Shown one piece after another: positions 1-64,000 of a stretch of 64,000 nt of DNA. How positions within the stretch are numbered: position 1 is the first letter of the stretch; the number at the start of each line of letters is the position of its first letter. The notes under the pieces are model-generated. The model was not told the origin of the DNA and did no database searches. It saw nothing but the letters and a program-made list of their open reading frames with translations. The position numbers were made by a program, and so were the translations under genes. This DNA comes from Cinnamomum chago (Eukaryota; Streptophyta; Magnoliopsida; Laurales; Lauraceae): assembly GCA_038049695.1 (NCBI GenBank), contig CP142452.1, positions 50,922,501-50,986,500 on the forward strand, written 5' to 3'.

Positions 1-105
1 ACTGGAAAAGTAACCGCCGAGTTCGGTTAGCATGCGGTTAGCCGAAGTGAAGACTGGTGGCTAGCCGCAAGCTGACCGCAAATGCACGGGACACGCGGTT
101 CAGTG
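1..105. repeat. Palindromic-word cluster (CGG-N4-CCG type) in Tekay-family LTR
   Basis: Imperfect palindromes built on CGGTTAGCCG and GGCTAGCC occur several times in about 100 bases, for example around 23-44 and 58-67. The words match the GGCGGTTAGCCGCC class at 62880-63185, although that cluster lies in a different LTR family. The other Tekay-family LTRs in this window use CGCTCGAGCG instead. The cluster may continue left of the window. Confidence 0.7.
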
Positions 106-1223
106 CAGGTTTTTCACATCTTTCTTCTACCCTTCTTCTTATTCTCATTCCACCTGCATTCCCTTGAGCCTACATGCTCTCCAAGGGTAAAACACACATA
201 TTTTTCAATCTTAAACATTCAATCCAAAGAAAACATAATCATGAAACTTGTAAACATATTTGTATGCGAAAATTCCAAAACAACAATGTAGTTTAAAATA
301 CACATTCACAATGGTCCTATAGAGATTACTTTCCTTGCCCAAATGCTAATAATCCTCTCCAAGCACTTCACTCAAAAGCTAAGCCAACACTACAAGAAAA
401 CCCAAGAGAAAACCATACCAAACCTAACACAATGAAAGCAAAGAACCCATTTTCATAACAAGGGGTTTTCAATTGAAAAACAAGATCTTAAGGGACCAAA
501 ATAACTCCATGAAAATTATGAGTGAAAGCTCTTACCTAGAGAAGGTCAAACAAGAAGAGATGAAGAAGATTGAAGGCTTGTCTCACAAGAGGTTCCAAGA
601 AGTTTATACTAATAGAGAGCTTGCAAGGAGATGAAGAAGATGATAAGCTTGGAATTCTATTTGGAGCTCTCTAGCCAAAGCATGCAACATGAAGAAGATT
701 GAAGAGAAGAAGAGCTTTCCTTGCCCTAGGTCAAGAAAGTTGCAGAGATTGGGGGAAATGAATGAAAGGAGAGGGAGATGGGGTTTAAGTGAGGAAAATG
801 GGTCCCAACTAGCTGAACTTGAAGTGTTCAAAACACGATCTTGGGAGCCTCGAATGACTTCGACGAAGAAGGATAAAACGATCGTCGAAAAATCTAGTTT
901 CCAAAAAGTATATTTTTGACATGGTTTTGAGATCTCGAAAATTGTGTCCAGATTTGTGCAAGAAAGACAATTTTACCCTCTTTGGGCCAAAACATAGGTT
1001 TTTGGGCTTCAACCATGAATGTGCTTAAAACGAAAGTTGCAACACGTCGAAACATCATTCAAATGAAATCAAAATCACAATCACACAGAAACCAATACGA
1101 TCTCCCAAAGCTATGTCCAAGACTAAAACTAATTACTTCTAACCCAACAACGACTAAACTCACTTAGGACTAAACACATACTAATCGTACACTAATCGTA
1201 AAGGTCTGGGTCGGGGTCTAACA
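1..1223 (-). mobile_element. Tekay-family LTR fragment, minus strand, cut by window edge
   Basis: Read on the minus strand, this begins at 1223 with TGTTAGACCCCGACCCAGAC, the same LTR start seen at 52025, and follows that LTR through its U3 part to the palindromic cluster, where the window begins. It carries the conserved U3 box (887-912). Compared with the other copies it lacks a short block near its start that includes the small hairpin seen at 52176-52195. The 5 bases after the end are GTTTC, but the matching TSD copy would lie outside the window. It may be a solo LTR or one end of a longer element. It is diverged from the backbone LTRs and is non-coding. Confidence 0.85.
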
Positions 1224-1558
1224 GTTTCCTCGGGATTTGAGACATTTCGCTTCATTTTTTGCTTGTGTAGATGAGTTTGAGTGCCACATGGAAAGTAGAA
1301 CCCTTTTTAAAGGTACTGCATAAGAGACTTCCTTTATGCACATGTGTTTGACTCCAAGGTGAGGACTATGATGGAGAACACACTCTGTGCATGGGCTTCC
1401 ATCCTAAGATAAACACATTTCTATTGATGCAACCCGGCCAAAAGACATACATTATGATGTTTGTAAATCTTCCTTGAGAATTCTACATATGATCAAGTTA
1501 TATAGTAGGTAGGAAAAACATTCTCTCACATAACTCATACAATTATGAGAAGTATATC

Positions 1559-1680
1559 AATACAAGACACATGGCATGTTATATAGTAGGTAGGAAAAAC
1601 ATGTACAACATGGCATGTTGTACAAGACACATGGCATGTTGTACAAGACACATGGCATGTTGTACAAGACACATGGCATA
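1559..1680. repeat. 21-bp tandem repeat
   Basis: The unit TACAAGACACATGGCATGTT plus one base occurs at 1561, 1620, 1641 and 1662. The last three copies are in direct 21-bp register. A nearby phrase (TATAGTAGGTAGGAAAAACA) is also present twice, near 1500 and 1581, so the locus grew by local duplication. Confidence 0.85.
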
Positions 1681-2279
1681 ACTTTCCATGCTTTCCATGA
1701 CTCTTTAGTAGAATCATAATGAATCTTCATCTGTCTTTTATCATAATGTAACCTAGTATTTTCTGTGAACCCCTTGATTATTGGATCCCACCCAGCTCGA
1801 TTAAAGCAATGAGTGGGTCAATTTCCCTTTTGAGCTTGCTCCACACATAATTCCACAAAGACTTGATGATGTTGTGAATTCCAATAGGCCTTTAGCCTTT
1901 GACCAACACAGTTAGGTGCTGACATCAGAACCTAAGATTGTAGCCATGCATATCTACCAAACTTAAATGAACTTTTAACAAACATATGTTGTACTTAAGA
2001 AAATCATTTAATTTTTATGATATAAATTGTTCTCACCATTTGATGTGCTTGCACAATCAAATGACAGTTTATCCAATGCACACATTCATGGTTGGGTATA
2101 ATCTTACACAAGAATTATGTATAATTTTCCTTGCTGCCATATGCTTAAATGTAAAAATAAATGAAGGAATATGAAAATGAGTACAAGACACATGGCATGT
2201 ACATGCCATTACATGTTGTTTCTAGGCTGGGGTTTATATAAACAAAAGAGACATCTGGCACTTATCTTCAAAATCCACC

Positions 2280-2735
2280 AAGTTGCAGGTAAGGCATGCA
2301 GGGAACCAAAAGTTGCAGGTGCAGGGAGCTAGCAGGGCAGGGGACCTGGTGTTTAGTTGAATGATCGGCCTGGGGCTAGGTGCAGGGAGCCAGCAGGGCA
2401 GGGGAGGAAGGGAGTGGTTCGCAGGGGAGGCAGGGAGTGTTTTGCCGGGGAGGCAAGGAACTAGCAAGGAGGGACTGGGGCTGGGTTTTCTATTAGACTG
2501 GGGCTGGGCTTTTGGGCTGCGACTGGGGCTGGGCTTCTAGGATGCGAATGGGGTTGGGTTTCTGGGCTGCAACTTGGGCTGGGTTTCCACCGGATTGGGG
2601 TTGGATTTTCCATCCAACTAGGGCTGGGTTTCCACCAGACTAGGGCTGGGTTTGTCACCGGAATGGGGTTGGGTTTCCACCGGAATGGGGCTGGGTTTGC
2701 CACTGGAATGGGCTGGGTTTCTGGGCTGCAGTTTC
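2280..2735. repeat. G-rich degenerate minisatellite
   Basis: GGGCTGGG-centred units of roughly 25-30 bases repeat from about 2461 to 2735 (GCTGGGTTTCCACCGGA and variants). They are preceded by two longer copies of a CAGGTGCAGGGAGC phrase (about 2315-2400). The minus strand reads as proline-rich open frames only because the repeat contains few stops. I do not call it a gene. Confidence 0.75.
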
Positions 2736-2989
2736 TGGTATTGGACGGCTGGTAGTGGTGCATAAACAACGTGGGGCAGGGCTGTAATGACGAGGAAGAG
2801 AATGAAGGAGTAGAGATAGGAGAAGAGGAAAAGAGAGTGAGGAACCCATACCTGTATTGAAGGGTCACCGACGTTTGGGAAAAGGGAAAACACAGAGCAA
2901 CGTGAGACGATGAATAGTTGTGAAAGAGATGATGAATAGTTGTGTTGCACATTTTTTTAGTTTAATTAGGTTATTAATCCCATGGTTTA

Positions 2990-3355
2990 GGTTAAAACAC
3001 ATTCCAAACGCGCAACGTGCGCGTCGTTAATTATTGTTAATAACCTTCGCCGACGCATCTCAACATCGGCAACTAGTTATTCATAATTCCCAACGTAGTT
3101 AGTGCGTCGCCTTTCCGAACAATTATTTCTCGACGCTATAGTGCATCGGGAACAATCTAATTCATGTCAGGAAAACATTCACTCCAAGACCCTAATGGCG
3201 CCATCCTCTTTACCGACGAGATTTTCCGACACGCAGAAGGTAGCGTCGCGTAATTATTTTGCCAACGCTGTGGTGCGTCTGCTAAACCAGTTTTTTGCGA
3301 CGTAATTACACTGCGTCGGAAAGTTTTGTCGGCAAATATGCAATTTGTTGTAGTG
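2990..3355 (+). mobile_element. Right terminal region of a CACTA (En/Spm) transposon
   Basis: The last bases are TTGTTGTAGTG, the right terminal inverted repeat expected for CACTA elements (complement of CACTACAA). The preceding 350 bases carry many GCGTCG/CGACGC words, typical of subterminal transposase-binding regions. The junction TAGTG|AGT falls in the middle of a Tekay LTR: the next bases (3356 on) match that LTR from its base 137 (52161). The element therefore appears to have inserted into the LTR. Its left end and the other TSD copy are not in the window. Confidence 0.8.
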
Positions 3356-5999
3356 AGTATTAGTCAGACACACTCAGGAAGGCCTGAGTGCATGTGTAAG
3401 CTTGGGAGGATCGTATCGGTTTCTGTGTAATTGTGATTTTGATTGCATTTGAATGATTTTTCTATGTGTTACAACTTTCGTCTTAAGCCCATTCATGTTT
3501 GAAGCCCAAAAACCCAAGTTCTGGTCCAAGAAGGGTAAAGTTGTCTTTTACACACAAATCTGGACACAATTTTCGAGATCTCAAAACTATGTCAAAAATA
3601 TACTTTTTGGAAACTAGATATTTCAAGGATCGTTTTATCCTTCTTCGTCAAAGTCATTCGAGGCCCATAAGATCATGTTTTTTGTCATTTCAAGGTTCAA
3701 AGTTCATTGGGCCCATTGTCATCACTTAAGCATAACTCTCATCTCTTTCATTCATTCCCCCAAAATTCCTGCAACTTTCTTAACCTAGGGCTGAAAATCC
3801 CTCTTTCCTTTCCATCTTCCTCACCTTGCATGATCTAGCTAGAGATCTCCAAATAAAATTCCAAGGCCATCATCTTCTTCCTCTCATCTCAAGCTTCCTA
3901 TTGATGTCTCCTTCTTGAAAGCTAAAGTTGGGGAAGCTCTCCATTTTCTTCATTCCTTCTTGTTTGAGCATTTCTAGGTAAGAGCTTCAACCCAGACTTT
4001 TCATGAAGTCTTTTTGGTTCTTAAAAATCTTGTTTTTCATGTTACAAACCCCTTTGGTAAAATGGGTTTCTTGTTTTCAAGATTTAGTGAGTTTTGTGTG
4101 GTTTTCATGGGTTTTTGTAGTTCTTTGGATTAGTGAGTGAAGTGCTTGGAGAAGTGTGAGACATCTTGGACTAAGGCAAGTAATCTCTATAGGTTCAATG
4201 TTGCATGTGTATTTTGATTACATTGTTATTTTAGAAATTGTGCATATAAACTTGTTTATAAACTTCATGATCTTGTTTTCATTGGATTGGATGTTTGAAA
4301 TGGTGAAAATGAACCCTTGGTGAGCATGAAGGCTTAAGGGATTGTATGTGGCTTAAGGATGAGAAGAAGGAGCGAAATGTGTGGGAAGTTGTACAAGAGA
4401 AAGGGTTTTTCCCGCACTCAGCGAGCACAGGCAGAAGCGGACGGGTCCGCTCGAGCGACCAAGCCACTGCTTGGTCCGAGCGCAGACAGAGAGCTGTCCG
4501 CTCGAGCGAACTGCCCACTGTTTAATCTCGAGCAAGACAGAGAGTTGTCCGCCCGAGCAACCTTATTGTCCGCTCGAGCGAACTGTCTCGCTCGAGCGAA
4601 GTGTCAATACCTTACAAGTTCCGCTCGAGCGAACCTGCCAGATTCAGGAAGAAGAATTATTTCATTTGTGTATTTTCTTGAAGGTTGAAAAAGTAGACTA
4701 TGTTAAGGGTTTTGACTTGACATTGTGTAAATGGAACTTCGAAATGCAACCCAACTTCGGGGACACCAATTCTTGTATATTCCGACATTTGGGGTCCCAA
4801 GTACACAAAGGTCAATTAGTAGCCTTAACACATGCTTGTCAGATTTCGTATTTTGAATTTCCGTCTTGGTACGATAAGTACCATCGTGCACTTGTTTTGA
4901 ATTTCACGTATAAGCTTGTTTTGAAGATTTGTTTCAAGAAAAAGGGGATCACTTCCTAAGCGTGATATGCATATTAATTATGCCTTTTGCTAGTCGTGTT
5001 TGTTGTGTTTGATAAGTGATTTTCCCCCTTTTTTATCTCGACGTGTTTAGACCGTGTTTCGCGTGTTTTGTGCATTCATGAATTAAGTGAACACCACTGA
5101 GCTTGGACTGCCCTTTCAGTTTGATCCACTCTCTGGGGGTCTTTAAACATGTGGACTGTCTGCAGACTAGTCATGTATTTTATTACACATCGTGCGTGTC
5201 CGGTTCCGCGGCCGGAATCCCCGTATATGTGGGAATCGTGTCGTGATTATATTATGTATATCGTGCTTGTCGTGCGTGCTTGCTCTTTTCATTATATATA
5301 TGATAGAGAAAGGATGGGCTCTCTGTGGAATGTAACTATTCATGATATTATAAGTATGCATGTTAGCTTTACTCGTATTTTGAAATGTATCTGAGTCTTG
5401 TAACTGTTTACAATCTAGCAAAATGTCTTTATATGTTCTTTAAAGGTTTACTATTTTATGTTCATACCTAAATTGATTACCTTCCAAACCGTTGTGTTTG
5501 ACCCGTGTTTGTTGGTGCCCAGGTGCAGGTGACGTTACCTTTGAGGAGGAGCGTCCGGAGGAGGCTTTTGAGCCAACCCCTGTTAGAGAGTTGCAGCCCG
5601 ATGATGTCAACTAGACGTCGGGCGGGTTCTTGAGTTTCGTCATTATGTCATGGGTTTCATTTGTTATTTTGAGAATTGTATTGGCCTCTGTTGGCCTCTC
5701 ATGGGTTGTAATTAAAACTTAACTTACTTTTGAGTTAGTCTCATAACTTGAATCTTGATGGGAATGCCATTTTAACTTCTTCCTTTGATACTATGCCTTG
5801 TTATTATTTGTCAAAGCACTTAAGGATTTATTGGTGTTTATCTTGATGTGATTTGCTACACGCTTCCGCATACTTGATCATGTGAGTCAGATTCCGCGTG
5901 TCTTTGGGAATCCTCACTGCGGGAACCTGTGGGGAAAACATAAACAAATCGTAAATAGACACACGTCTTGGGCCGGGGATCCGTTCCGGGGTCGCGACA
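3356..5999 (+). repeat. 5' LTR of the Tekay-like element (5' end missing)
   Basis: It matches the 3' LTR (52161-54816) throughout and ends GGGGTCGCGACA immediately before the primer-binding site. The first 136 bases are missing at the CACTA junction. It contains the small hairpin (3371-3390), the U3 box (3599-3624), the palindromic cluster (4430-4640) and the conserved motif near the 3' end (5484-5504). No clear TATA box is visible. Confidence 0.92.
4430..4640. repeat. Palindromic-word cluster CGCTCGAGCG in Tekay 5' LTR
   Basis: About seven exact or near copies of CCGCTCGAGCGAAC-like words lie in about 200 bases, each centred on CTCGAG or a one-base variant. They are separated by short spacers that themselves repeat (GACAGAGAG-TGTCCGC). 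The surrounding LTR is AT-rich and poor in CpG. Long open frames cross it in several phases (repeating PLERT-like text), a by-product of the repeat and not coding. Confidence 0.85.
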
Positions 6000-6002
6000 G
6001 GA

Positions 6003-6014
6003 CTGGTATCAGAG
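6003..6014 (+). other. Primer-binding site, tRNA-iMet type (Tekay)
   Basis: CTGGTATCAGAG lies four bases after the 5' LTR end. It matches the TGGTATCAGAG complement of the initiator methionine tRNA 3' end, used by many plant LTR retrotransposons. Confidence 0.85.
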
Positions 6015-6162
6015 TGGGACATGTTTCAGGCACTTAAAAGAAACTAGAAAGGGCTTAGGAACGTGGCGAGGATTCGTGACTTCGATAGATTTGTTGGTAT
6101 AGGACCTTAGAAACCCTTATACCATGATTATTGTGTACTAACTCTTTGTTTTACGACACCAT

Positions 6163-6803
6163 GCCTCCAAGAAAAGCTCCAAATCATCATGCTTCAAGCA
6201 GTAATCAAAATGAGTCAGACACGTCTAATACACCAACAGCTACACAGTTTCAGGAACTAATGCAAGCTATGATAGCACAACAAAGGCAGGCTAATGAAAA
6301 CCAAGCAAGATTTCAAGAACAGTTAGCAAAGAAGGATGATGAAATGGCTCAAGTACAGAGGCAACTCTTGGAAGTACTTCAGAACAGGAATGTAGCTCCA
6401 CCACCCGTGGGTCCGCAAATTGTTATCCAAAATAGGGATCCTGACCCTAATGCACTATTTGAGAAATTTAGGAAGAGAGCACCGAAGGAATTTTCGGGCA
6501 ATGAGGACCCGTTAGTGGCAGATGACTGGCTAGTTAATACCGAGAAAATCTTCGATGTCTTTATGTGCACGGGATTAAAAAAGGTCAACCTCACAGCTTC
6601 ACTATTCTACGGGCTTGCAGATAGGTGGTGGCAAACAGTCAAGGATCCATATGCAGTGATGGCTAATGAAGAGGCGTGGGCATCATTCAAGACACGATTT
6701 CAAGATAAATACATTCCCTCTCACGTCAAGAGGCAGAAGGCTATCGAATTTCAACAGCTCAAACAAGGCAGCATGACGGTGCTAGACTATGTCACCAAGT
6801 TTG
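6163..6803 (+). pseudogene. gag: Tekay gag, N-terminal block
   Basis: The reading starts MPPRKAPNHHASS and passes through a Q-rich helical stretch into the retrotransposon Gag core (FRKRAPKEFSGNEDP, then WLVNTEKIFDV, ADRWWQ and FQDKYIP). That core is the capsid-like domain that packages element RNA into particles. The start was chosen as the first Met of the family-typical MPPR opening. The block ends where the Tat element is inserted, and the domain resumes after 28294. Fossil. Confidence 0.85.
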
Positions 6804-7050
6804 TGATGGACCCGGCTTTTCTCTTTTTCCAAAGCTGCCTCCGCCCCGGGGCTGACGGGGTACGGTGGAGGGAAAGAAAGGAAAAGCGGGCATCAGTTTT
6901 TTTTTTGTACGGGTATGCCAATTTCTCTTTTATACTTGGAATTTAGAAATGGTGATCCGGAGATCCACCTTCACAAGTAAAAAGGGAAATGAAACTTTTT
7001 TCTAGTTTTCCATTGCATACATATTTTAATAAAAGAGACAGTTTTGTTTG

Positions 7051-7144
7051 AATGCCGTGAAAGGCGTTTTTGTGCCGTAGAAGGCGTTTTTGTGCCGTAG
7101 AAGGCGATTTGGTGCCGTTGAAGGTGATTTTGCCTTAAAAGGCG
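7051..7144. repeat. About 20-bp tandem repeat in Tat 3' LTR
   Basis: TGCCGTAGAAGGCGTTTTTG-like units occur about five times. The sister LTR (25267-25340) has one unit fewer, so copy number has changed since insertion. Confidence 0.85.
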
Positions 7145-7630
7145 ATTTACAAATCTTATCAAAAGTAAAAGACAAGAATTGTGAAATTTTTTTGTCTCTT
7201 AAAAAAAATACAATCTACAATAGAAAAGCAAGAAAAAGGAATCTAACTTCTCATGCGATTGTGGGAGGGCTCGTTCAGATCGACGGTCGCGAGTCATGTA
7301 TGGGCTCCGCCATCGTCCTTCAGATGAGAACATAGTGCTTGATTTCTTGGCTTGGCTCCAACCTCAGATTTTTAGAGGATAAGGACCAAGATAAGGTCCT
7401 ATATCCGGTAAAAAGCTGAGTAGACGGGCTGAAAAGCCGCATCTAGCCATGTTGGATAGAAGGATAGGTGGCCTTTGAGGGGGGGGTGGCCCCCCAAGGG
7501 GCTTCAATCACCTTGTAGTACTTGTCGCAGCAGAGTTTTCTTGAAGGAGCAGGGTTGTAGAGATTTCTCCGAGGATTTTTGAATGATTTTCTGGTGATTT
7601 TTCCGGATCCGTTTCCCTTGGAATGGCTTC

Positions 7631-7640
7631 CTATTTATAG
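7631..7640 (-). promoter_or_regulatory. TATA box of Tat 3' LTR
   Basis: On the minus strand this reads CTATAAATAG, a consensus plant TATA box. The identical site lies in the 5' LTR at 25824-25833. It separates the long U3 side (tandem array and palindromes) from R/U5. Confidence 0.7.
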
Positions 7641-8304
7641 GCATTTTGTAGCCATTTAGGAGAGTTTATGAGCATTTATGGTATTAATGCTCATGATGGG
7701 AGGAGTTACAAGTTTTTAATTACTTGTTTCGTAACTCCTTTTTCCTTGCATTTGATTGGCCGATGGAGAGTAGTGGGCATTTAATCGCCTTTAATCTCCA
7801 TTATGTTAGGAGTTTCATGGCTTGAATGTCATGATTGCTTGGACTTGTAACTCCTGAACAGAGGCTTCTGATTGGGCCGTCCAAGATAATGGGTTAATGA
7901 CCGCATTAACTTGCCATAAACGGGCCAATTGATAGCATTAAGTGGCCGCCTCGGTAGCTGAAGAGTCGCGGGCCATGTTGCGTCTTTTGGAATTCCTTTT
8001 GCGATGATCGTTGATGGATCCTTATGTAAATCAACATCAGATGATCATGTAGTTTCAGGCATTGGTTGATACCAGCGGGCCGGCAGCATCTGTCCAGTTG
8101 ATTTCACGATCGGGCGGGCAGAAAGTGCTCTTTTTTGGTTGTTCGACTGGCAATCAACGAAGTTTTTGAAGTTCTGGAAAGGAGTTCTATGATCTTGATG
8201 AATATCAGTGAATTTGGAGCTTCAAAAGCCTGAATCTGGAAAAATCACAGGGACAGAACAACTCGTCTCGCGAAAACGGACGAAACGGGGGGTCCCGGGG
8301 CGAA

Positions 8305-8420
8305 ATCGGCGCCCCAGACCTCCCAGGATCGCCGGGTCCATGGTCGCCGGCGACCATGGGCCATGGTCGCCGGTGACCCTGGCCCAGGGTCGCGGGGGTC
8401 TGCGACCCTGGGGGAAAAAT
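8305..8420. repeat. Palindromic-word cluster in Tat 3' LTR
   Basis: It contains a perfect 22-bp palindrome (8338-8359, core GTCGCCGGCGAC) followed by overlapping CCATGGTCGCCGG and CCCTGGGCCAGGG-type palindromes. It is strongly GC- and CpG-rich against an AT-rich background. It lies about 0.7 kb upstream of the TATA box in the element's own orientation. Confidence 0.85.
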
Positions 8421-8631
8421 TCCTTCCCGGGGCCCCTTTTTGGCCGTTTTTCGTCGTTTTTCGCTTCCGTTTTTTTTTGCTTGTTTTCTCTGACATTTCT
8501 CCACATTATTTGGCTTGATTTCCCTCTGAAAAACCTGATGAGAATCCTTGCAAATTGGTTTGCAAAGTTTCTGATTTTCCGGGAAAAGCCGAACGCAGAA
8601 CTGCTGATTTTCCGCCAGTAGCTGAAACAGT

Positions 8632-9775
8632 ATCAAACGATGTCGGAATGACCTGAAATTTGAGGTGAAGCTTCTTGATCATTAAATAAGACCAACCATG
8701 GGCTTTTGTTTGAGTTTTAAAGCCATTTGGGGTCATGCAAATGCTTGCCTTTGATTTCACCGCGAGGGAAATGCTGAGCTTTGACTTTCGGTCAAACGAT
8801 GTCCGATTGACCTGAAATTCGATGTGTGACTCCCTCATCAGTAGTTAAGACCAACCGTAGGCTTTCGCTTGAGTTTTGAAGCCGTTTGGAGTCATGCAAA
8901 TGCTTGCCTTTGATTTCACCGCGAGGGAAATGCCGAGCTTTGACTTTCGGTCAAATGATGTCCGATTGACCTGAAATTCGACGTGTGACTCCCTCATCAG
9001 TAGTTAAGACCAACCATAGGCTTTCGTTTGAGTTTTGAAGCCGTTTGGAGTCATGCAAATGCTCGCCTTTATTTCACCGCGAGGGAAATGCCGAGCTTTG
9101 ACTTTCGGTCAAACGATGTCCGATTGACCTGAAATTTGATGGGTGACTCCCTCATCAGTAGATAAGACCAACCACAGGCTTTTGTTTGAGTTTTGAAGCC
9201 ATTTGGGGTCATGCAAATGCTTGCCTTTGATTTCACCGCAATGGAAATGTCGAGCTTTGACTTCTGGTCAAACGATGTCCGATTGACCTGAAATTCGACG
9301 TGTGACTCTCTCATCAGTAGATAAGACTAACCATAGGCTTTCGTTTGAGTTTTGAAGCCATTTGGGGTCATGCAAACGCTTGCCTTTATTTCACCGCGAA
9401 GGGAATGCCGAGCTTTGACTTTCGGTCAAACGATGTCCGATTGACCTGAAATTCGACGTGTGACTCCCTCATCAGTAGATAAGACCAACCACAGGCTTTC
9501 GTTTGAGTTTTGAAGCCATTTGGAGTCATGCAAACGCTTGCCTTTATTTCACCGCGAGGGAAATGCCGAGTTTTGACTTTCGGTCAAACGATGTCCGATT
9601 GACCTGAAATTCGACGGGTGACTCCCTCATCAGTAGATAAGACCAACCACAGGCTTTCGTTTGAGTTTTGAAGCCATTTGGGGTCATGCAAATGCTTGCC
9701 TTTGATTTCACCGCAAGGGAAATGTCGAGCTTTGACTTCTGGTCAAACGATGTCCGATTGACCTGAAATTCGACG
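8632..9775. repeat. 158/159-bp tandem array in Tat 3' LTR
   Basis: The marker GTCAAACGATGTCC recurs at about 8632, 8791, 8950, 9108, 9267, 9425, 9583 and 9742, a strict 158-159 base period giving about seven units. The first unit is the most diverged, and a decayed unit is recognisable past 9880. Units alternate in variants such as TTTGATTTCACC and TTTATTTCACC. Confidence 0.95.
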
Positions 9776-10078
9776 AGGAGCCTATTGGAGTCATTTTGAG
9801 ATGATCCACAAGCTCCGAATTGGGTGCCATGGTCCCGGGGTGCTCCGTTGACGGGAGCTGCTGCTTAGCTGTTGGAGAAGTGAAGCTAGGCCAAATGATA
9901 TCGAAATGGCCCGAAACTTCATGTGTACCTCTCTTTTGGTTATTTTGAGTGACCTTGCAGTTTTTGTTTGATTCTGACAAGATCTGATGCTTGAAGTAGC
10001 GCCTGCCTATTTTTGGTAGGATGCGGCTCCGTGTAGCTTTTGGTGTGAAGAGGCAAAGTGACATTTTTGGTGTCAACA

Positions 10079-11225: not shown

Positions 11226-12604
11226 ATGGCTTCAAGTAAGTTTTTTATTTCTTTTTACAAGAAATTCCATGTAAAGAAAGTTTCATCATTTTTTTTTCCT
11301 ATTTTTTTTTTTTTTTTTTTTTGCTGCTGTACGGACATGTCCGTACAGCTTGGGCCGTACGGCCATGTGGCCCATGGGCCACGGCTTGTGGGCCAGCCCA
11401 TAATTTTTCTTTTTTTTTTTTTTTTTTTCTTTTTTTTTTTGAATTTGCTGACACATATTTTTGTTTTCTTGTCAGCTGACTTGCCAGAGGGTTCCGACTT
11501 CGAGCCCTCTATGGATATGGCTTTCGACAATGCCTCGGATGAGCAAATGGAGACAGAAAGTACTCCACCCATCATAGAAGAAGGTATTTCATAGTGATAA
11601 TCTTGAAATTGATTTTTTTTTTTGACAAGATCATATTCATACCTTTTCTTGTGTTTCTGCCAGCAGGTTGTGAAGCAACAGGAGAAGTTCCTTCGTCTTC
11701 CTCAGGGCCAGAGCAGGAGATGCCAACAGCCGATCCAGAAGTAGGGGCTTCTTCTACCAGTCCCGTTACGGCAGAGGCAGGACTTTGTGGTGATATTGCT
11801 TCTTCAGTGGCTCCAATTGGAAAGAGCCTTTTGATTTCTTCTCCACCACAGCCTGACATGGGCAGTCAGCCAACACAGCGTGGTGAATCTCCATCCGGAC
11901 CATCCCTTCGATATGCAAAGAAGGTGTTGAAGAGTGTGCTGAGCTCATGGGTTGAGACTCTTTCTTCTGGCCACTTGGAGGCTGGCTTTGGCATGGTCAA
12001 GCACGTGCAAGACATCCTTGCTGATAGTGCAGAGGTTGGCCTGGACATTACAAGTGCTAAGACCTTTGTTGATGATGTCATCGCGCTGGGTAACAAGTGG
12101 AATGAGACCAAGTATTTCCCAAATGATGACTTCTTCAGAGAGATGTTCTTCAAGCCGTGCGGCGAGGTTAAATCTAAAATGAACGAGATCGCGCGGACTC
12201 GGAAGCAATACGTTCGGGAGAGGAACGTTACTGAGTTAGCGATCCTTGAGCTGACTCAGGACCTGCACCGTCTTGATAGGGAGGTCAAAGAGACTAGGCA
12301 GCACCTTGAACTGTTGGAAGAACAGGCTGCTGCCAAGTGGACTGCCGTCGTTGAAGCTCGTGCCAAAGAGGGAGCTTTGATTCGCCAGGTTGAGGAAACT
12401 GACAGCCATCTCCGGAGGAAGACTCAGGAGTATGAGCAGTGGCAAATTCTCTGGGAAGAGCTTCCTCGTGCCGAAGATGGGTCGCGGCGTTCTGCCATGT
12501 TTTATGGCAAGATCTTGAAGAAGCGCGGTCTGGAAGCTTTAGAAGCTAAGGCCAAGAGTCTGCTTGAGGAGCTGGATCTTTGGTTGAAGACCATGCTAGA
12601 CTGA
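11226..12604 (+). CDS. Antisense accessory gene of the Tat element, coiled-coil protein
   Basis: The gene reads opposite to gag-pol, between pol and the 3' LTR, where Tat-lineage elements are known to carry extra ORFs. A first ATG at 11226 is followed at once by a consensus GTAAGT donor. A short acidic coding block (about 11476-11583) and the main block (about 11667-12604) are bordered by AG and GT signals, so at least two introns are likely. The main block opens with a Ser/Pro-rich low-complexity stretch, then a globular helical part (YAKKVLKSVLSSWVETLSSG), then a heptad-like helix rich in E, K, R and L to the C-terminus. I see no transmembrane segment or enzyme motif. I do not recognise the family, and the function is unknown. 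The coding blocks look open, suggesting past selection. Confidence 0.7.
11327..11395. repeat. Palindromic-word cluster in first intron of the antisense gene
   Basis: Three perfect palindromes lie in 55 bases: 22 bp at 11327-11348 (core CGGACATGTCCG), 12 bp GGCCGTACGGCC at 11353-11364 and 14 bp TGGCCCATGGGCCA at 11368-11381. They are flanked on both sides by long T runs. The architecture matches the LTR clusters but lies outside any LTR. Confidence 0.85.
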
Positions 12605-48779: not shown

Positions 48780-50421
48780 TGTTAGGTCTTTTGTTTTTGC
48801 AATTTGATGGATGCATTTGCACTTTAGCACCATTTGAATTCACACACTAGCATTGTGTTAGAAAACCTTGAAATCTAGTTTTATACATGCATATCTTTTA
48901 AGATTTGGAAAAGCTTTTGTTTTATGCATGTTTTGGTTTTAAACTTGGATGCATTGGTTTTGAATCCCAAACTCTTTTTGAAAACCTAATTCCATGTGCA
49001 CTACTTTTGGAAAATCATGTTAGGTATTTAGGTTTCAGGTTTGCATACTTTCAGCACCTTTGGAATCAGTTTTGTATGCAATATCTTTTGAAAAGAGTTT
49101 TTACTAATCAAGCTTGCCTAAGGTCTTAAACCTTTGAATCTTCTTAGGCTTTAGGTATCTCATGTTTTAATCATCTTAGAATACCTTAAATCATGTATTT
49201 AAGCTTGATTTAGTGGCCAAAAAGATTCCCCAAAGAAAAACTTTGAAAATGGAAAAAGTGGATTTTTGGCCCAGGGACTCGCCCGGCAGTGTCGCCGGTC
49301 GACCGAGCCCTTCTAGGTCGACCGAGACAACTAGCCCGTGGACTGTTTTTTGCCTATAAAGTCCATTCATTTCCAACCTTTTTCAAGGCTTGAACCATGA
49401 ACTTTTGAGAGCATTTTGGAGCCAAAGAAAGGGGAAGAAGTTGGAAAGGCTAGAGGGCTATTTGGAAATCAAACTCATGAGTTTTTAAAAAGGTACATCT
49501 TCTAAGTTATTTTGATTTCCATTCAAATGAGATTCATGCATGTTCAAATCCTTGGTATTTTCATTTATGCATGATTTCAAGCCTATAAAGAGTTGTTTTG
49601 CAAACTCAATATCTTCCTTGGTAAATTAGATTAGTTTGCAAACTCTCTTAACTAAATCACATGCTTTCTTAGACTTTTACATTCATACAACTTATTTAGT
49701 TCATTTATTAAAGTTGTTTGAATTTCACATGTGATTAGTTTTCTCTTCAATCATCATTTTATAAGCTTTGATTTTAAAATGCATCATGCATTCATTTAAG
49801 AGCTTCTTTGTTAAGATTGATTGAAGAAACACACTCATACACTTGTGCACACACTTTAGCTTGTTTTAAGTGTATGTTTGTAAGTTGTATTAAACTTTCA
49901 TATTAGCCTATTCAAGAGGCAATTTCATATGAGCTTAAATTGTAATCTCTTAGAGTGATCTTTTGGAAAGACACCTTCTTTGAGAAATCAACTTTGTAAA
50001 GGTTATTGCTTAGCCTTTGAAAAGCATCTTGTAAGGTTATTGCTTAGCCTTTGAAAAGCATCTTGTAAGGTTATTGCTTAGCCTTTGAAAAGCATCTTGT
50101 AGGGTTATTGCTTAGCCTTTGAAAAGCATTTTGTAAGGGTTATTGCTTAGCCTAGTTAAAAGCATAAATAGTGGAAATCCGGTGGGGTGATTGGATTCAC
50201 AAGCCGGTAGTGGATGTAGGCATTGAGGCCGAACCACTATAAACATTGGTGTTGTGGTGCATGCTATGTGGTGATTGTTTTTGTTTAGCTTCCGCATTTT
50301 ATTTGATTAATCATCACATGTGACTAGTTTTGTTTAAGAAACTAAAATTGGTTTAAATTGGTCACAATTGTAGCTCACCCTATTCACCCCCCCTCTAGGG
50401 TTAGGATCCCAAGGACTTTCA
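48780..50421 (+). repeat. 3' LTR of the Sirevirus-like element
   Basis: Same length as the 5' LTR (1642 bases) and almost identical. The only differences I noticed are single bases near 48888 and 49694. The TATA box is at 49354-49361. Confidence 0.94.
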
Positions 50422-50599
50422 CCTACTTGGTGGTTTAACTTCATTAATCCAAGCTTTAGCTTTCCTAATCTTCCCCTTCATCCCTTGGTTCTTTTCCCTT
50501 TTGATATGCCTCAAATCCTCTCAAGGAGGGGTTAAAAATTCCCAACATTTGGAAAGGGAAAGAACTCCTTTTTATAGCCAAAACAGCCCCAACGGCTAG

Positions 50600-50760
50600 T
50601 TTAGCCGGTTGACCGGCCATGACAGGCCGGTTGACCGGCCAAGCACAACGGTCATAAAAAGAGCCGTTGTGCCAGCCCGGTTGACCTGCCCTGTGTGGCC
50701 GGTTAACCGGGCCTCTTGGCCGGTTGACCGGCCACACATGGCCGGTTGACCGGGCCTGCC
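50600..50760. repeat. Palindromic-word cluster CCGGTTGACCGG in outer Sirevirus LTR
   Basis: Six to seven words, such as CCGGTTGACCGG and CCGGTTAACCGGGCC, lie in 160 bases. They end about 30 bases upstream of the TATA box (minus strand, 50567-50577). Words vary at the centre (TTGA, TTAA), and the nested relative uses CGGTCGACCG. Confidence 0.88.
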
Positions 50761-51132
50761 CAGAATTTCCCATTTTTTGGGTTTCTTGAAGATTTTCTTT
50801 GGGGATCTTTTGGGCCATTAAAATCAAGCATTTTCACATGTTTTAAATCATTCTAAGATGTATAAAAACATGAAACAAAAAGCCTAAAAGGATTCAAAGA
50901 CTTTTAAAACAAAGGCTTGCTTGATTTCTTGAAAACTCTTTCTTAAAACAAATGCATCCAAGATAAAAACCAAAACATGCATAAATCAATACTTTTACAA
51001 ATCTTAAAAGCAATGCATGAATAAAACAAGATTTCAAGTTTATCTAAAACAATGCATATGTGTGTGAATCAAATGATGCTATAATGAAAATGCATCCATC
51101 AAATTGCAATCTAGAAAATTCCTAACAACAGT

Positions 51133-51987
51133 AGGTTTGTTTCAAAGTTTTGGAAAACGCTTCATGAGTCTATGGGTACCAAACTTCAGTTCAGCAAAGC
51201 TTATCATCCTCAGACAGATGGTCAGTCAGAAAGGACGATACAGACTCTCGAAGAAATGTTGTGTGCTTGTGTATTGGATTTCATGGTTCAGTGGGATGAA
51301 TGCTTACCGCTTTGTGAATTTGCTTATAACAATAGTTACCACTCCAGCATCGGTATGGCACGTTTTGAGGCACTTTATGGTAGAAGATGCAGAACTCCGG
51401 TTTGCTGGGAAGAAGTCGGTGAGCGTAGTTTTCATGGACCGACGATAGTTGGAGAGACAAGTGACAAGGTCAAGTTGATTCAGGAATGGTTGAAAATCGC
51501 CCGAAGTAGGCAGAAGAGTTATGCAGATACTCGCAGAAAAGAATTGCAGTTTCAAGTGGGTGACAAAGTGTTCTTGAAGATCTCACCAGTTAGGGGGACT
51601 TTGAGATTCGGACAGAAGGGCAAATTGTCTAGAAGGTTTATTGGCCCGTATGAGATTTTGAGCAAGATTGGAGATGTCGCTTATAGGCTTGCGTTACCGC
51701 CGGAACTCTCTGGGGTACACAATGTATTTCATGTTTCTATGCTCAAGAAATATGTTTCTAGTCCTTCACATATACTACAGCACGAACCTTTGGAGATTCG
51801 GGAAGATGCCTCGTATGTGGAAAGATCGATCAAGATAATTGATACCAAAGAGCAAGAATTGAGAAACCGGACTATTCATTGGGTCAAGGTACCTTGGGAA
51901 AATCACGAGCCAGAAGAAGCCACCTGGGAATTGAGAGAGCAAGTGCAGATGAAGTATCCACAGCTTTTACCAGAGGTAGTTGTTTGA
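51133..51987 (+). pseudogene. pol: Tekay integrase core end and chromodomain-like C-terminus
   Basis: It resumes with FVSKFWKTLHESMGTKL and the glutamate of the DDE triad in YHPQTDGQSERTIQTLEEML. Then come CEFAYNNSYHSSIGMARFEA, the GPYEILSKIGDVAYRLALP block and HNVFHVSMLKKYV. The last residues read RTIHWVKVPWENHEPEEATW, a chromodomain-like tail thought to direct insertion into heterochromatin. This is open over its whole length. Confidence 0.92.
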
Positions 51988-52024: not shown

Positions 52025-54816
52025 TGTTAGACCCCGACCCAGACCAATTCGATTAGTGTGCGATTATTATGTGTTTAGTCCTAAGTGGGTTTAGTTGTCG
52101 TTGGGTTAGAAGTAATTAGTTTTAGTCTTGGACACAGCTTTGGGAATTTTGAGAACGTTTAGTATTAGTCAGACACACTCAGGAAGGCCTGAGTGCACGT
52201 GTAAGCTTGGGAGGATCGTATCGGTTTCCGTATAATTGTGATTTTGATTTCATTTTAATGATTTTTCTATGTGTTACAACTTTCATCTTAAGCCCATTCA
52301 TGTTTGAAGCCCAAAAACCCAAGTTCTGACCCAAGAAGGGTAAAGTTGTCTTTTACACACAAATCTGGACACAATTTTTGAGATCTCAAAACCATTTCAA
52401 AAATATACTTTTTGGAAACTAGATATTTCAAGGATCATTTTATCCTTCTTCGTTAAAGTCATTCGAGGCCCACAAGATCATGTTTTTGTCATTTCAAGGT
52501 TCAAAGTTCATTGGGCCCATTGTCATCACTTAAGCATAACCCTCATCTCTTTCATTCATTCCCCCAAAATTCCTGCAACTTTCTTAACCTAGGGCTGAAA
52601 ATCCCTCTTTCCTTTCCATCTTCCTCACCTTGCATGATCTACCTAGAGATATCCAAATAAAATTCCAAGGCCATCATCTTCTTCCTCTCATCTCAAGCTT
52701 CCTATTGATGTCTCCTTGAAAGCTAAAGTTGGGGAAGCTCTCCATTTTCTTCATTCCTTCTTGTTTGAGCATTTCTAGGTAAGAGCTTCAACCCATACTT
52801 TTCATGAAGTGTTTTTGGTTCTTAAAAATCTTGTTTTTCATGTTACAAACCCCTTTGGTAAAATGGGTTTCTTGTTTTCAAGATTTAGTGAGTTTTGTAT
52901 GGTTTTCATGGGTTTTTGTAGTTCGTTGGATTAGTGAGTGAAGTGCTTGGAGAAGTGTGAGACATCTTGGACTAAGGCAAGTAATCTCTATAGGTTCAAT
53001 GTTGCATGTGTATTTTGATTACATTGTTATTTTAGAAATTGTGCATATAAACTTGTTTATAAACTTCATGATCTTGTTTTCATTGGATTGGATGTTTGAA
53101 ATGGTGAAAATGAACCCTTGGTGAGCATGAAGGCTCAAGGGATTGTATGTGGCTTAAGGATGAGAAGAAGGAGAGAAATGTGTGGGAAGTTGTACAAGAG
53201 AAAGGGTTTTTCCGCACTCAGCGAGCACAGGCAGAAGCTTGTCCGCTCGACCGACGCTTGGGTCCGCTCGAGCTACCAAGCCACTGCTTGGTCCGAACGC
53301 AGACAGAGAGCTGTCCGCTCGAGCGAACTGCCCCCTGTTTAATCTGGAGCAAGACAGAGAGTTGTCCGCCCGAGCGACCTTATTGTCCGCTCGAGCGAAC
53401 TGTCTCGCTCGAGCGAAGTGTCAATACCTTACAAGTTCCGCTCGAGCGAACCTGCCAGATTCAGGAAGAAGAATTATTTCATTTGTGTATTTTCTTGAAG
53501 GTTGAAAAACTAGACTATGTTAAGGGTTTTGACTTGACATTGTGTAAATGGAACTTCGAAATGCAACCCAACTTCAGGGACACCAATTCTTGTATATTCC
53601 GACATTTGGGGTTCCAAGTACACAAAGGTCAATTAGTAGCCTTAACACATGCTTGTCAGATTTCGTATTTTTAATTTCCGTCTTGGTACGATAAGTACCA
53701 TCGTGCACTTGTTTTGAATTTCACGTCTAAGCTTGTTTTGAAGATTTGTTTCAAGAAAAAGGGGATCACTTCCTAAGCGTGATATGCATATTAATTATGC
53801 CTTTTGCTAGTCGTGTTTGTTGTGTTTGATAAGTGATTTTCCCCCTTTTTTATCTCGACGTATTTAGACCGTGTTTCGCGTGTTTTGTGCATTCATGAAT
53901 TAAGTGAACACCACTGAGCTTGGACTGCCCTTTCAGTTTGATCCACTGTCTGGGGGTCTTTAAACATGTGGACTGTCTGCAGATTAGTCGTGTATTTTAT
54001 TACACATCCTGTGTGTCCGGTTCCGCGGCCGGAATCCCCGTATATGTGGGAATCGTGTTGTGATTATATTATGTATATCGTGCTTGTCGTGCGTGCTTGC
54101 TCTTTTCATTATATATATGATAGAGAAAGGATGGGCTCTTTGTGGAATGTAACTATTCATGATATTATAAGTATGCATGTTAGCTTTACTCGTATTTTGA
54201 AATGTATCTGAGTCTTGTAACTGTTTACAATCTAGCAAAATGTCTTTATATGTTCTTTAAAGGTTTACTATTTTATGTTCATACCTAAATTGATTACCTG
54301 CCAAACCGTTGTGTTTGACCCGTGTTTGTTGGTGCCCAGGTGCAGGTGACGTTACCTTTGAGGAGGAGCGTCCGGAGGAGGCTTTTGAGCCAACCCCTGT
54401 TAGAGAGTGGCAGCCTGACGATGTCAACTAGACGTCGGGCGGGTTCTTGAGTTTCGTCATTATGTCATGGGTTTCATTTGTTATTTTGAGAATTGTATTG
54501 GCCTCTGTTGGCCTCTTATGGGTTGTAACTAAAACTTAACTTACTTTTGAGTTAGTCTCATAACTTGAATCTTGATGGGAATGCCATTTTAACTTCTTCC
54601 TTTGATACTATGCCTTGTTATTATTTGTCATAGCACTTAAGGATTTATTGGTGCTTATCTTGATGTGATTTGCTACACGCTTCCGTATACTTGATCATAT
54701 GAGTCAGATTCCGCGTGTCTTTGGGAATCCTCACCGCTGGAACCTGTGGAGAAAACATAAACAAATCGTAAATAGACACACGTCGCGGGTCCGGGATCCA
54801 TCCCGAGGTCGCGACA
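52025..54816 (+). repeat. 3' LTR of the Tekay-like element (complete)
   Basis: It is 2792 bases, TGTTAGACCCC to GGTCGCGACA. Landmarks are an 8-bp-stem hairpin (52176-52195), the U3 box (52404-52429), a GTAAGAG donor-like site (52779), a palindromic cluster (53235-53455), a 21-base conserved motif (54301-54321) and a CAG acceptor-like site (54343-54345). Open frames over the cluster and near 53966 are shared with the 5' LTR but have no protein signature. Confidence 0.94.
53235..53455. repeat. Palindromic-word cluster CGCTCGAGCG in Tekay 3' LTR
   Basis: About seven words (CCGCTCGAGCGAAC and variants such as CCGCTCGACCGACG). The first part differs from the 5' LTR cluster by an extra word and altered spacing, although the surrounding LTR is nearly identical. 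Confidence 0.87.
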
Positions 54817-61347: not shown

Positions 61348-62345
61348 TAACCTTAAGGCCTTGATCCTCTCTAGACCAACCTATCCTTTTTAGTTAAATC
61401 TTTTTGTTGGTCTTTGTTACATTTGCATTTTGTTTCTTTATAGTCGCATCTTTTAAAATGCAATGTTTCTTTGTAATCATTTGATTTTGTCTTCATGAAC
61501 TTTTAAGTTATATCTCATGGTTTTCAAAATCCTTTGAGTGCAATATTTTCATGATGGATGTGCATTTTGTTCATATAGTTATATCTCTTGTAGTGCATAT
61601 CTATTCATGATCAATTGATTGTGATTACAAAAGCTTTCATAGCTAGATTTTTTTCATGATCAATTGATGTTGGAAAATCATTTGATGAATGTCATAGTTA
61701 GATCTTTTTGTAAATCAAATGATTTGAAGCAATTTAAGTTTTCCATTGATTTTTCAAGTTATATCTCTTGGTATGGAAAATATGTGTTCAATTTGTATGA
61801 GTGTCTATTGTCATTTTTTTTAGAATACAAATTGAAAATTTATATTAGTACACTTATTGTTTTTCAAAATCACTTGCTCATAATTCTATAAATGATTCTT
61901 TGTTGGAATTTCAAATATTGAAGTGATTTGAAAAACTTTGGAAAATGTTCTAAGCTTTATTGGTTGTACTTATAGATGCATTTTCCTTGAGTTTGTTTCC
62001 TTGTGATTAATTATGATTATATCATTTGGAAGGAAATAATTTTTACAAACAATTTGCATCTTTGTTCTTTTAGTTACATTCTTTTTATGCAAATTGATTT
62101 TGTTGTCTTACATTGCATGGTTGGATACGGCTTCATTGATTTGCATGTTTGTGCCTAACTTGGTATATATTTTCATTAATGAAAATTGATGATTGTTTAT
62201 GTGTTTTATAGTAAAATCTTTTGTTTTATTATCATTTGAGCCTATTAAGTACATATGTGATTTAGTGTGCTAGGCTCATTTGGTATAATCATCATATCCA
62301 TTTTCATTGCATTGTAAGCATTAGTACATTTGCTTGTTGGAAACT
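61348..62345 (+). mobile_element. Sirevirus-like internal fragment
   Basis: It begins TAACCTTAAGGCCTTGATCC and matches 46463 onwards (ACCTTAGGGCCTTGAACCC, GACCAACCTATTCTTAATAG, TTGCATTTTGTTTTCTTTTAG). It is the stretch just after the gag end of the young element. It is strongly diverged, therefore older, and interrupted on the left by the CACTA end. The ATAGTTATATCTCTTG-type word recurs here (61391, 61441, 61505, 61575, 61694, 61755 and 62071). Confidence 0.8.
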
Positions 62346-62559
62346 AGGTGGGCCTTTCAGACAGGTTTCAAAAACTTTTGACCCACTTGATGTAGGGATC
62401 AATTATCTAGAAGGCAACAAACCAATCCAGGATGCAATCCCTCAAACTTATAAACCATGTACAGCAACATATACTATCTAGAAGATAGAAAACAACACCA
62501 AAACATGCAACCACGAAATCCACAACATACAAGGTAGTATGAATATCAACAATTTCTGT
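62346..62559. other. Unassigned stretch
   Basis: About 215 bases between Sirevirus-derived DNA and recognisable family-3 LTR sequence. It may be a diverged U5 end of that LTR, but the expected terminal motif is not visible. No gene. Confidence 0.4.
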
Positions 62560-64000
62560 AATACAAATCATATAATACAAATCTTGGAATGAAGTGAAAC
62601 AACGAACCATAACAATTTCTGTAAAAGTACTGGTTTCAAGTTTTGTTTAAGGTGAATAGGGGTCCCGTATGTCGATTGTAACAAGAACTTGGTACTCCTT
62701 GAGTTTGAAGACTCCTTATTCACTTTGAATTTTCAAAACTTCGAATGACATCCTCGTGATATGGTTTCTTTCTCGAATGGCCTCATACAATTCCTAGTGA
62801 ATCTCCTTTGATCGACAAAGCTCAGCGCTCGAACGAACCGGAGAGTTCATTCGAGCGAGGAGCTTTTCGAAATCTGGGGAATTTCGGTTACCTGGCGGTC
62901 AGCTGGCGGTTAGCCGCCGCTGGGATGGGTGGCTAGCTGCTGGCTGACCGCGGTTGGCCTGCAGAAATGCAGCTTACTGGATAGGTGACCGCCAAGTGCG
63001 GTTAGCTGGCGGTTAGCCGCCGATGTGTTCGGCGGTTAGCCGCTGGCTAACCGTGGAGCTGACCGAGTTTTCAGGTGGAGAAGTGTGCTCTCTGGAAAAG
63101 CAACCGTGACATTTCGGCTACCTGGCGGTTAGCCGCCAGTCACCAGACGGCTAGCCGCCGGGTGACCGCAGGCTGACCGTCAGGTGTGGGAATCACCCAC
63201 TGTGTTCAGATTTGAGCCCTTCTCCTCCTCAAAACCATTCTCTCCACTTCCACTTGATCCCTATAATAATATTGAGCTAAGAGCTCCTCCAATGCCTCTA
63301 TCTACTCTTCTCCAAAGCCCCATCATATGTTCATTCCATCACTTCCTCCATATCAAGTCTAATACAAAGTAAAGAGGAAGGAAACCATTTCACAAACATT
63401 CATTTAGGATATACCCAAAAGACAATAAATGCTAAACCAACATGTTTACAAACATTAAATGAGGCTATCAAGATGCAAAGAGGGCATTTATTTCAACCAT
63501 AAACACATTAATGAAAGCATGAAAATCCATAAATGCTTCACCAAACCATTTGAAACTTAAAACACTTCATCATTCACTTGCCTCAAGTCCAAGCTAGCCA
63601 AAAATCAAGCCTCTACTCACTTCTTAAGCTCACTTCCAAGCTACAATAAAAAAACCCCCAAAACAAACCCTAAAATGGGTCAAACAATGAAATGACAAGG
63701 AAACCTTTCAATAGTAAAGGTGGAGCTTCTCTAAGGCTATAGGAACACAAATGTAGAAGATGAAGAAGAACACTTACTTGGATGACCTTCAAATGAAGAG
63801 CTCTATCTCAAAGGGAGTCTCAAAGTTGGTGGATTCTTCTACAAAAGGTATCAAAGTGAAGCTTGCTAGATGAGGAAGAGGCTGGTGATCTCCATTTCGA
63901 GTTTGGTGCAAGATTGGTGAGGATCTGAGATGGAGAAGCAAGAAGAAGAAGAGGAAGCAAGAAAACCCTAGACTCTCCTCTTGTGCTGGAAAATGAAAAT
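62560..64000 (-). mobile_element. Family-3 LTR, minus strand, runs off the right edge
   Basis: It shares with the outer family-3 LTR the block AAGGTGAATAGGGGTCCCGT and TCGATTGTAA (62650-62685, compare 35062-35092). Later it shares the run up to AAAACCCTAG and TTGTGCTGGAAAATG (63964-63996, compare 40412-40446). It lies in the same minus orientation. Its U3 start is beyond the window and its left end is diverged or truncated. A large palindromic cluster occupies 62825-63185. Confidence 0.82.
62825..63185. repeat. Palindromic-word cluster GGCGGTTAGCCGCC in right-edge family-3 LTR
   Basis: This is the largest cluster in the window. Words of the form GGCGGTTAGCCGCC are at 62905-62918, 63008-63021 and 63124-63137, with many variants (GGCTAGCTGCTGG, ACGGCTAGCCGCC). 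On its left side are CGCTCGAACGAAC and TTCGAGCGAG, resembling the Tekay word, so two word classes sit side by side. Confidence 0.9.

Follow-up and report, generated by a model that had tools for sequence, protein, structure and literature searches.

Clusters of palindromic CpG words in copia and Ty3/gypsy long terminal repeats of Cinnamomum chago as candidate enhancer arrays

In a 64,000-nucleotide stretch of the Cinnamomum chago genome (C2:50922501-50986500; hereafter, the window), we identified compact cassettes of CpG-rich palindromic words in the long terminal repeats (LTRs) of both Ty1/copia and Ty3/gypsy retrotransposons. On balance, we think it probable that these cassettes are enhancer arrays for homodimeric DNA-binding proteins, most likely those of the host. 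Two unrelated retrotransposon classes carry like arrays and their relatives differ in word, which suggests that these elements rely on a limited number of DNA-binding proteins that act in pairs.

From the copy number, position, half-site statistics, spacing and CpG retention of the words, we infer that a protein binds them, that this protein is a host dimer, and that its binding activates the element. Each cassette would be an enhancer array within the LTR, made up of some two to nine 10-12-base sites with dyad symmetry. The reader, acting on double-stranded DNA, would be a homodimer, most likely of a single plant transcription factor or of a few related ones. One monomer would contact each half-site, of the general form CG-N-Y-Y, and adjacent dimers, at intervals of about 21 bases and on one helix face, could bind side by side. 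Selection would retain the sites and their CpGs, and families may switch word by cassette replacement or via mixed cassettes, whereby different element classes would follow the same few host proteins.

Cassettes in two retrotransposon superfamilies

Palindromes of at least 10 bases with at least three CpGs number 25 in the window, against 0.5 (standard deviation 0.7, maximum 2) in 30 local dinucleotide shuffles, so that shuffled DNA is not equally palindrome-rich. When a cluster is defined as one palindromic CpG 8-mer occurring two or more times within 250 bases, the window holds eight same-word clusters versus 0.10 (maximum 1) in 20 shuffles, and 19 further 10-kb stretches, chosen at round-number places, hold 13 versus 0.30 (maximum 2). 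Control clusters of mirror repeats numbered three in the window and nine in the 19 stretches. Seven exact words together occur 146,450 times genome-wide: CGGTCGACCG (48,732), CGCTCGAGCG (35,424), CCGATCGATCGG (15,936), GTCGCCGGCGAC (1,977) and three related forms, CGGCTAGCCG (14,365), CGGTTAACCG (8,337) and CGGTTAGCCG (21,679, both strands). Read backwards, the seven words occur only 4 to 579 times, the forward versions being 14 to about 660 times commoner.

A sequence-only reading of the window had placed palindrome clusters at 12 positions and in every LTR family. All 12 hold the listed words or close variants, and this earlier observation is real but overstated. Two LTR stretches of its family 3 (33564-35160 and 37269-39381) contain no CpG palindrome reaching 8 bases, and CCGGTTGACCGG and GGCGGTTAGCCGCC are imperfect, so the palindromes are not perfect throughout. 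The range of two to eight copies per cluster fails for some, with CGTCCGGACG occurring once, and CGGTCGACCG once in each LTR together with a single 8-base core. The claim of a common architecture in Ty3/gypsy LTRs holds for the Tekay-type and Tat-type repeats and fails for family 3. The names Tekay and Tat are labels from that reading with which the protein domains, including reverse transcriptase (RT), concur, and the lineage assignment by domains is provisional.

The copia element at 43119-50421 has Sirevirus features, namely four AGGGGGAG tracts before its 3' LTR and TATCAGAGC in its primer-binding site (PBS) at 44766. Its word CGGTCGACCG, which includes a CGG-CCG core, is at +517 of a 1,642-base LTR, in the upper half. 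The cassettes at 43635 and 50605 occupy corresponding places of two related copia LTRs, and a palindrome cassette with the GGTCGACC core is present in 19 of 20 further copia LTR copies, the exception being L052. These 20 copies, and the 20 Tekay-type copies described below, were taken from matches listed from one end of one chromosome onward, with tandem copies and second LTRs skipped manually, and so do not sample the genome at random. In 21 of 22 copies of the copia family, a TATA box lies 15-30 bases past the last word, counted at up to two mismatches; L052 has no word. Counted per LTR at the same tolerance, two words stand upstream of the TATA box in the window element and four to six in most other copies. 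Between its LTRs, the window element has no GGTCGACC. Yet another word, TTCCGCGGAA, occurs three times in a different copia element (L008:3288-3365), and two of these copies have different complementary flanks.

A TATA-like box in the Tat-type LTR follows the cassette by some 680 bases, and TATA-like AT repeats lie about 600 bases downstream of the Tekay-type cassette in three window copies. With this gap in the Tat-type LTR and no conserved box found near the Tekay-type cassette, a promoter role is well grounded only for the copia family.

Tekay-type LTRs use different words at one site. The cassettes of window LTRs C, A', A, B, D and E (Table 1) lie at corresponding places of alignable LTRs, about 1.1-1.5 kb from the start where it is present. 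Of 1,821 candidate relatives of LTR D in a DNA search, the 40 that were scored were almost identical to one another, and LTRs were collected through pattern anchors instead. The start anchor, with 7,379 genomic places, supplied 20 Tekay-type LTRs, to which we added five from the window. At least one word within one mismatch occurs at +1000 to +1750 in 18 of the 20 fetched LTRs (one each in L030 and L040). L033 and L042 have none in this interval, with four words of L033 just beyond its fetched end. Together with the copia count, this shows that the clusters are not mostly absent from other copies, as they might have been on the terms of the sequence-only reading. The 25 LTRs use four main word types, CGGYTARCCG, CGCTCGAGCG, CGATCGATCG and CGTCCGGACG, of which only the first has the CGG-CCG core, and the cassettes of L037 and L001 each mix two types.

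A tree built from the first 1,000 bases of the 25 LTRs requires 11 changes of word label, versus 12.2 when the labels are shuffled (as low in 34 of 200 shuffles). CGATCGATCG is clustered (two changes; 7 of 500 shuffles as low), CGGYTARCCG is weakly clustered (six changes; 36 of 500) and CGCTCGAGCG is not clustered (four changes; 500 of 500); in this tree, the label "none" for L033 is wrong, and L030, L034 and L042 have long branches and an unsure placement. LTR A, with CGCTCGAGCG, and L028, with CGGYTARCCG, are 84% identical up to base 1153, show no match across the cassette and are 70% identical beyond it. LTRs A and B, which have the same word, are alignable throughout at 81%. Because the first alignment breaks only over the cassette while the second runs throughout, the cassette behaves as a module. 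Such word swapping among Tekay-type relatives fits the idea, raised in the sequence-only reading, of an exchanged cis-module.

One word is common to the two superfamilies. L016 contains an element (1106-7453) with copia-type gag and RVT_2 domains, a pair of 996-base LTRs and four AGGGGGAG tracts before the 3' LTR, in the Sirevirus pattern. Each of its LTRs holds the CGCTCGAGCG core three times, the word of Tekay-type LTRs A, A' and B. Its cassettes match the Tekay-type ones only in and beside CGCTCGAGCG (best E 0.016), and the spacers are dissimilar, which fits the other option of that reading, convergence. Twenty loci taken from the matches listed for CGCTCGAGCG (L064-L083) comprise three that are Tekay-like, one like L017 and 16 that match no reference. 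They form nine BLAST groups, which need not be independent origins because LTRs diverge fast. Some of these loci match Tekay-type cassettes over 31-42 bases spanning two words, and exchange is therefore possible there.

Half-sites, spacing and CpG retention

The words obey a common half-site pattern. In 254 kb of unselected sequence (the window plus the 19 stretches), we found 50 palindromes of the form CGNNN-NNNCG, which use 9 of the 64 possible words; 49 of the 50 are CGNYY, with two pyrimidines before the centre. The corresponding GC-ended class numbers 10. The 44,381 CGGYTARCCG sites of the genome divide into C/C (CGGCTAGCCG), T/T (CGGTTAACCG) and hybrid (CGGTTAGCCG) forms, and the hybrids, at 21,679 found versus 21,781 expected from independent halves (chi-square 0.98), occur almost exactly as often as independence predicts, in nearly equal orientations (10,595 and 11,084). 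Independence at this central pair would fit two identical half-site readers on double-stranded DNA and not base-pairing arms.

The spacing between neighbouring words is also narrow. Among 261 gaps between word starts, 137 measure 19-23 bases, or about two helical turns, and none measures 24-29, a pattern seen in six word types; the same 19-23-base peak appears among the matches listed on chromosome 1. CpGs persist better inside the words than outside them. In comparisons between aligned copia copies, L052 left out, a CpG is kept in 2902 of 3260 cases within words versus 1496 of 2295 elsewhere in the same LTR stretches, and in Tekay-type LTRs the figures are 1219 of 1312 versus 3317 of 5077 elsewhere in the same stretches. 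The Tat LTR pair keeps 10 of 11 in words versus 748 of 968 elsewhere, numbers too few to use. Among the options that the sequence-only reading had listed, a site for a dimeric host protein is the best supported, given the half independence at one position, the two-turn spacing and the retention of word CpGs; we infer the protein itself from these features.

Several observations weigh against an enhancer array read by dimers. Loss of the outer CpGs of CGCTCGAGCG is over-symmetric, with 4,987 single losses versus 6,635 expected and 1,142 double losses versus 318 expected. This excess may be explained by uneven copy ages and by TGCTCGAGCA, a separate word with its own clusters. In a pooled test, flanking positions 1-4 of GGTCGACC and flanking position 2 of GCTCGAGC agree with their mirror partners somewhat above expectation. 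No conserved TATAWA position was found near the Tekay-type cassettes in the 25 LTR starts. The mask used for CpG retention demands words within one mismatch and so somewhat favours retention. Long-range phasing at 10.5 bases was set aside, as repeated 8-mers from the spacers, outside the words, are equally phased (R = 0.60, both controls). Because these spacer 8-mers show the same phasing, duplication may explain the longer phased gaps, and the nearest spacing of 19-23 bases may itself be partly descended from duplication.

TGCTCGAGCA is a CpG-less symmetric relative of CGCTCGAGCG, and its clusters were seen at C1:1153657-1153739, where four copies lie within 83 bases, and at C1:34121439-34129026. 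They give the impression of a word variant from which the two outer CpGs have gone.

As an alternative to protein recognition, the cassettes may act as hairpins of RNA or single-stranded DNA, serving either as a small-RNA source and silencing target or as a dimerisation or packaging signal. The palindromes of maize Sireviruses are reported to be small-RNA hotspots with strong predicted structure (PMC10760457, PMC5311732), some of the palindromes here reach 18-30 bases with differing complementary flanks, and the small excess of symmetry in flanks and outer CpG loss points the same way. Within clusters, however, flanks complement their own partner no better than the permuted partners of other copies, a few positions excepted. 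As flank covariation is mostly at this permuted level, with a small pooled excess at some positions, we rejected a general hairpin constraint. The central pair is independent across the CGGYTARCCG sites, although a four-base loop could contain that pair. The copia cassette, moreover, would not be in the 5' end of the normal transcript, because it lies upstream of the TATA box; this position, found in 21 of 22 copies, also argues against a packaging or RNA-dimer signal for the copia family, one of the functions first suggested for the cassettes. We regard a hairpin role as unlikely.

The retention of word CpGs could also reflect CpG islands that are kept unmethylated or that steer methylation, with the exact word of little weight beyond its CpGs. 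Sirevirus clusters define CpG islands (PMC2829016), and the 5' CpG islands of grass Del/Tekay LTRs vary and have been proposed to escape silencing (PMC4029996). CpG density alone leaves unexplained the repetition of whole 10-base words, the two-pyrimidine rule and the 19-23-base spacing. Reversed words, which for palindromic patterns are palindromic too, though without CG ends, are rare. We find this explanation improbable.

Similarly improbable is a purely mutational origin, in which palindromes are perfected and tandemly duplicated during reverse transcription or repair and a reader is unnecessary. Spacers are co-duplicated in some cassettes, and cassette length and copy number vary, as such a process would produce. 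It leaves unexplained the 49 of 50 half-sites that fit, the word common to unrelated families, the retention of CpGs and the fixed position of the copia cassette upstream of the TATA box.

Least probable of all, and very doubtful in our view, is a reader encoded by the elements themselves that lifts silencing from its own family, for although VANC motifs are likewise repeated in non-coding regions and differ among related families (PMC5735166), as words differ among related LTRs here, one word is common to two superfamilies and the searched open reading frames (ORFs) gave either gag-pol domains or no Pfam match. That Pfam search, of 19 ORFs from elements that are mostly incomplete, revealed no extra DNA-binding gene; ORFs at window positions 11543-12601 and L017 4182-4703 had no match. 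A PDB sequence search with a piece of the L016 pol gave no match.

Element map of the window

The genome comprises 1.06 Gb in 14 contigs, of which C1-C12 span 57 to 134 Mb, and the window consists of nested LTR retrotransposons (Table 1). One Ty3/gypsy chromovirus-like element seems to run from a 5' LTR (3356-5999) through gag (6128), protease and RT (28711-29946), RNase H (32820-33668) and the end of integrase (51115-51984) to a 3' LTR (52025-54816). It is split by the minus-coded Tat-type element (6804-28289), the reversed LTR at 29967-32710, other LTR pieces and the copia element at 43119-50421. The Ty3/gypsy-type gag, RVP_2, RT_RNaseH and SH3_Tf2-1 domains found around LTRs A' and A are not those of Ty1/copia. 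The integrase C-terminal SH3 domain precedes LTR A, where a chromodomain match scores 18.9 bits, under the cut-off of 25.1.

Table 1. LTRs and cassettes identified in the window.
Feature	Coordinates	Strand	Details
Tekay-type LTR A' (5' end truncated)	3356-5999	+	CGCTCGAGCG cassette ~4430-4640; 96.9% identity to 52161-54816; palindromes
Tekay-type LTR A	52025-54816	+	CGCTCGAGCG cassette ~53235-53455 (+1211 to +1431); LTR start and end motifs; integrase end with SH3 upstream
Tekay-type LTR B, reversed	29967-32710	-	CGCTCGAGCG / CGTTCGAACG cassette ~31358-31517
Tekay-type LTR C, cut by window edge	1-1223	-	GGTTAGCC / GGCTAGCC cassette 1-105
Tekay-type LTR D, first 1.75 kb	35237-36987	+	CCGATCGATCGG cassette 36627-36777
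Tekay-type LTR E, broken at 39381 by family-3 LTR	39382-40986	-	CGTCCGGACG cassette ~39520-39605
Cassette of LTR F, LTR start outside window	62825-63185	-	GGTTAGCC / GGCTAGCC words; CGCTCGAACG-like sites at low end; 63538-63999 homologous to D and E reversed
5' LTR, Sirevirus-like copia element	43119-44760	+	CGGTCGACCG cassette 43635-43664; TATA box (CCTATAAAG) 43692; LTR pair 99.88% identical; PBS TGGTATCAGAGC at 44763
3' LTR, same copia element (43119-50421)	48780-50421	+	Cassette 49296-49325; AGGGGGAG tracts upstream at 48398, 48530, 48709, 48770
Part of related copia LTR, reversed	50568-51128	-	CCGGTTGACCGG / CCGGTTAACCGG cassette 50605-50760; TATA box 50568-50576; homology to 43119-43582 reversed
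5' LTR, Tat-type Ty3/gypsy element	25017-28289	-	GTCGCCGGCGAC and GGTCGC/GCGACC halves ~26528-26619; LTR pair; minus-strand gag-pol
3' LTR, same Tat-type element	6804-10078	-	Cassette ~8338-8407

The Tat-type element encodes gag, RT, two RNase H-type domains and integrase. Both of its LTRs hold tandem repeats of about 158-159 bases adjoining the cassette (8592-9842 and 26803-28053), and its internal part near the 3' LTR (11326-11364) contains a perfect 24-base palindrome and another of 12 bases, with cores of CGTACG or similar. An 18-base palindrome with a CGTACG core also occurs at L012:559. Among the matches listed, the Tat-type word GTCGCCGGCGAC first appears on C1 at 24443799 (24.4 Mb) and the other words within the first 0.1 Mb; the Tat-type element carrying it seems to avoid the chromosome end.

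Tandem arrangements of LTR retrotransposons were observed at several loci. Twelve Tekay-type LTR starts are spaced 6,027-6,039 bases apart at C1:36920448-36986807 and 19 are spaced 7,745-7,874 bases apart at C1:39286308-39426633, both tandem arrays, and C9:25452097-25482215 holds six tandem LTR retrotransposon copies about 5,980 apart. In L006, a copia unit is repeated at 6.9 kb with 99.97% identity. The tandemly repeated sequence of L009, with a period of about 1.4 kb, has a CpG observed/expected ratio of 1.14, very high for this genome.

Known motifs and significance

The copia half of this finding is already known. Bousios et al. (2010, PMC2829016) described repeated motifs, or RM boxes, as Sirevirus-specific and as a putative regulatory site, so the precedent named in the sequence-only reading was right. 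Sirevirus features given there are multiple AGGGGGAG tracts before the 3' LTR, a PBS with TATCAGAGC and at least eight motif copies per element, with a TATA box on average 37 bases past the CpG island. Like the RM boxes, the copia cassettes here hold several copies of a CpG word with dyad symmetry, lie in the upper LTR half and precede a TATA box; CGGTCGACCG, listed for Vitis, is the very word at window position 43635, and CGGCTAGCCG is contained in the Citrus word CCGGCTWRCCGG. Unlike the RM boxes, such cassettes also occur in Ty3/gypsy LTRs, and CGCTCGAGCG, CGATCGATCG and CGTCCGGACG have no CGG-CCG core. Word swapping and half-site statistics do not figure in the parts of PMC2829016 examined. 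Beyond what those parts report are the Ty3/gypsy cassettes, different words at one place, a word common to the superfamilies, the half-site statistics, the two-turn neighbour spacing and the better persistence of CpGs in words.

Variable CpG islands have been reported in Del/Tekay LTRs, though not in the eudicot elements studied (Cruz et al. 2014, PMC4029996). These are likewise CpG-rich, hypervariable LTR stretches of the same Ty3/gypsy lineage, but the main text of that paper contains no word beginning "palindrom". The palindromes of maize Sireviruses (Bousios et al. 2016, as cited in PMC10760457 and PMC5311732) similarly form fast-varying clusters in the LTR cis-region. They differ in being interpreted through secondary structure and small RNAs and in being described for copia only in those two accounts, where the same palindrome is also noted in maize Helitrons. 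The VANC targets of VANDAL transposons (PMC5735166) are short, repeated non-coding motifs that differ among relatives and set which protein acts; there, however, the elements are DNA transposons, the reader is element-encoded and the motif YAGTATTAY is not palindromic. PMC6911290 concerns insertion targets, and in PMC11963269 "palindrom" occurs only in the reference list. Among open-licence papers on palindromes in Tekay, gypsy or chromovirus LTRs, no title or opening of an abstract reported Ty3/gypsy cassettes, which is weak evidence of absence. Text matches to the words fell mostly in papers on unrelated topics, with CGGTCGACCG also found in PMC2829016, and we saw no report in the literature of a protein reading the Sirevirus motif.

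A more far-reaching version of the enhancer-array interpretation, which we offer tentatively and consider rather doubtful, is that copia and Ty3/gypsy elements of one plant share a small, interchangeable alphabet of operator words, built from inverted CG-N-Y-Y halves on a two-turn lattice, and that every word has its own reader within a diversifying family of dimeric host proteins. Cassette swaps would then change the reader, word use would record either an arms race or competition over host factors, and the specificities of the proteins could be predicted from the alphabet.

If Ty3/gypsy lineages use the same module as the Sireviruses, and its half-site code and spacing can be defined, the words could serve directly as baits, which would bring the reader within reach. 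If true, this would help to explain how unrelated elements remain expressed in one host, and the swapped words would provide a natural series on how retrotransposons recruit or escape host control.

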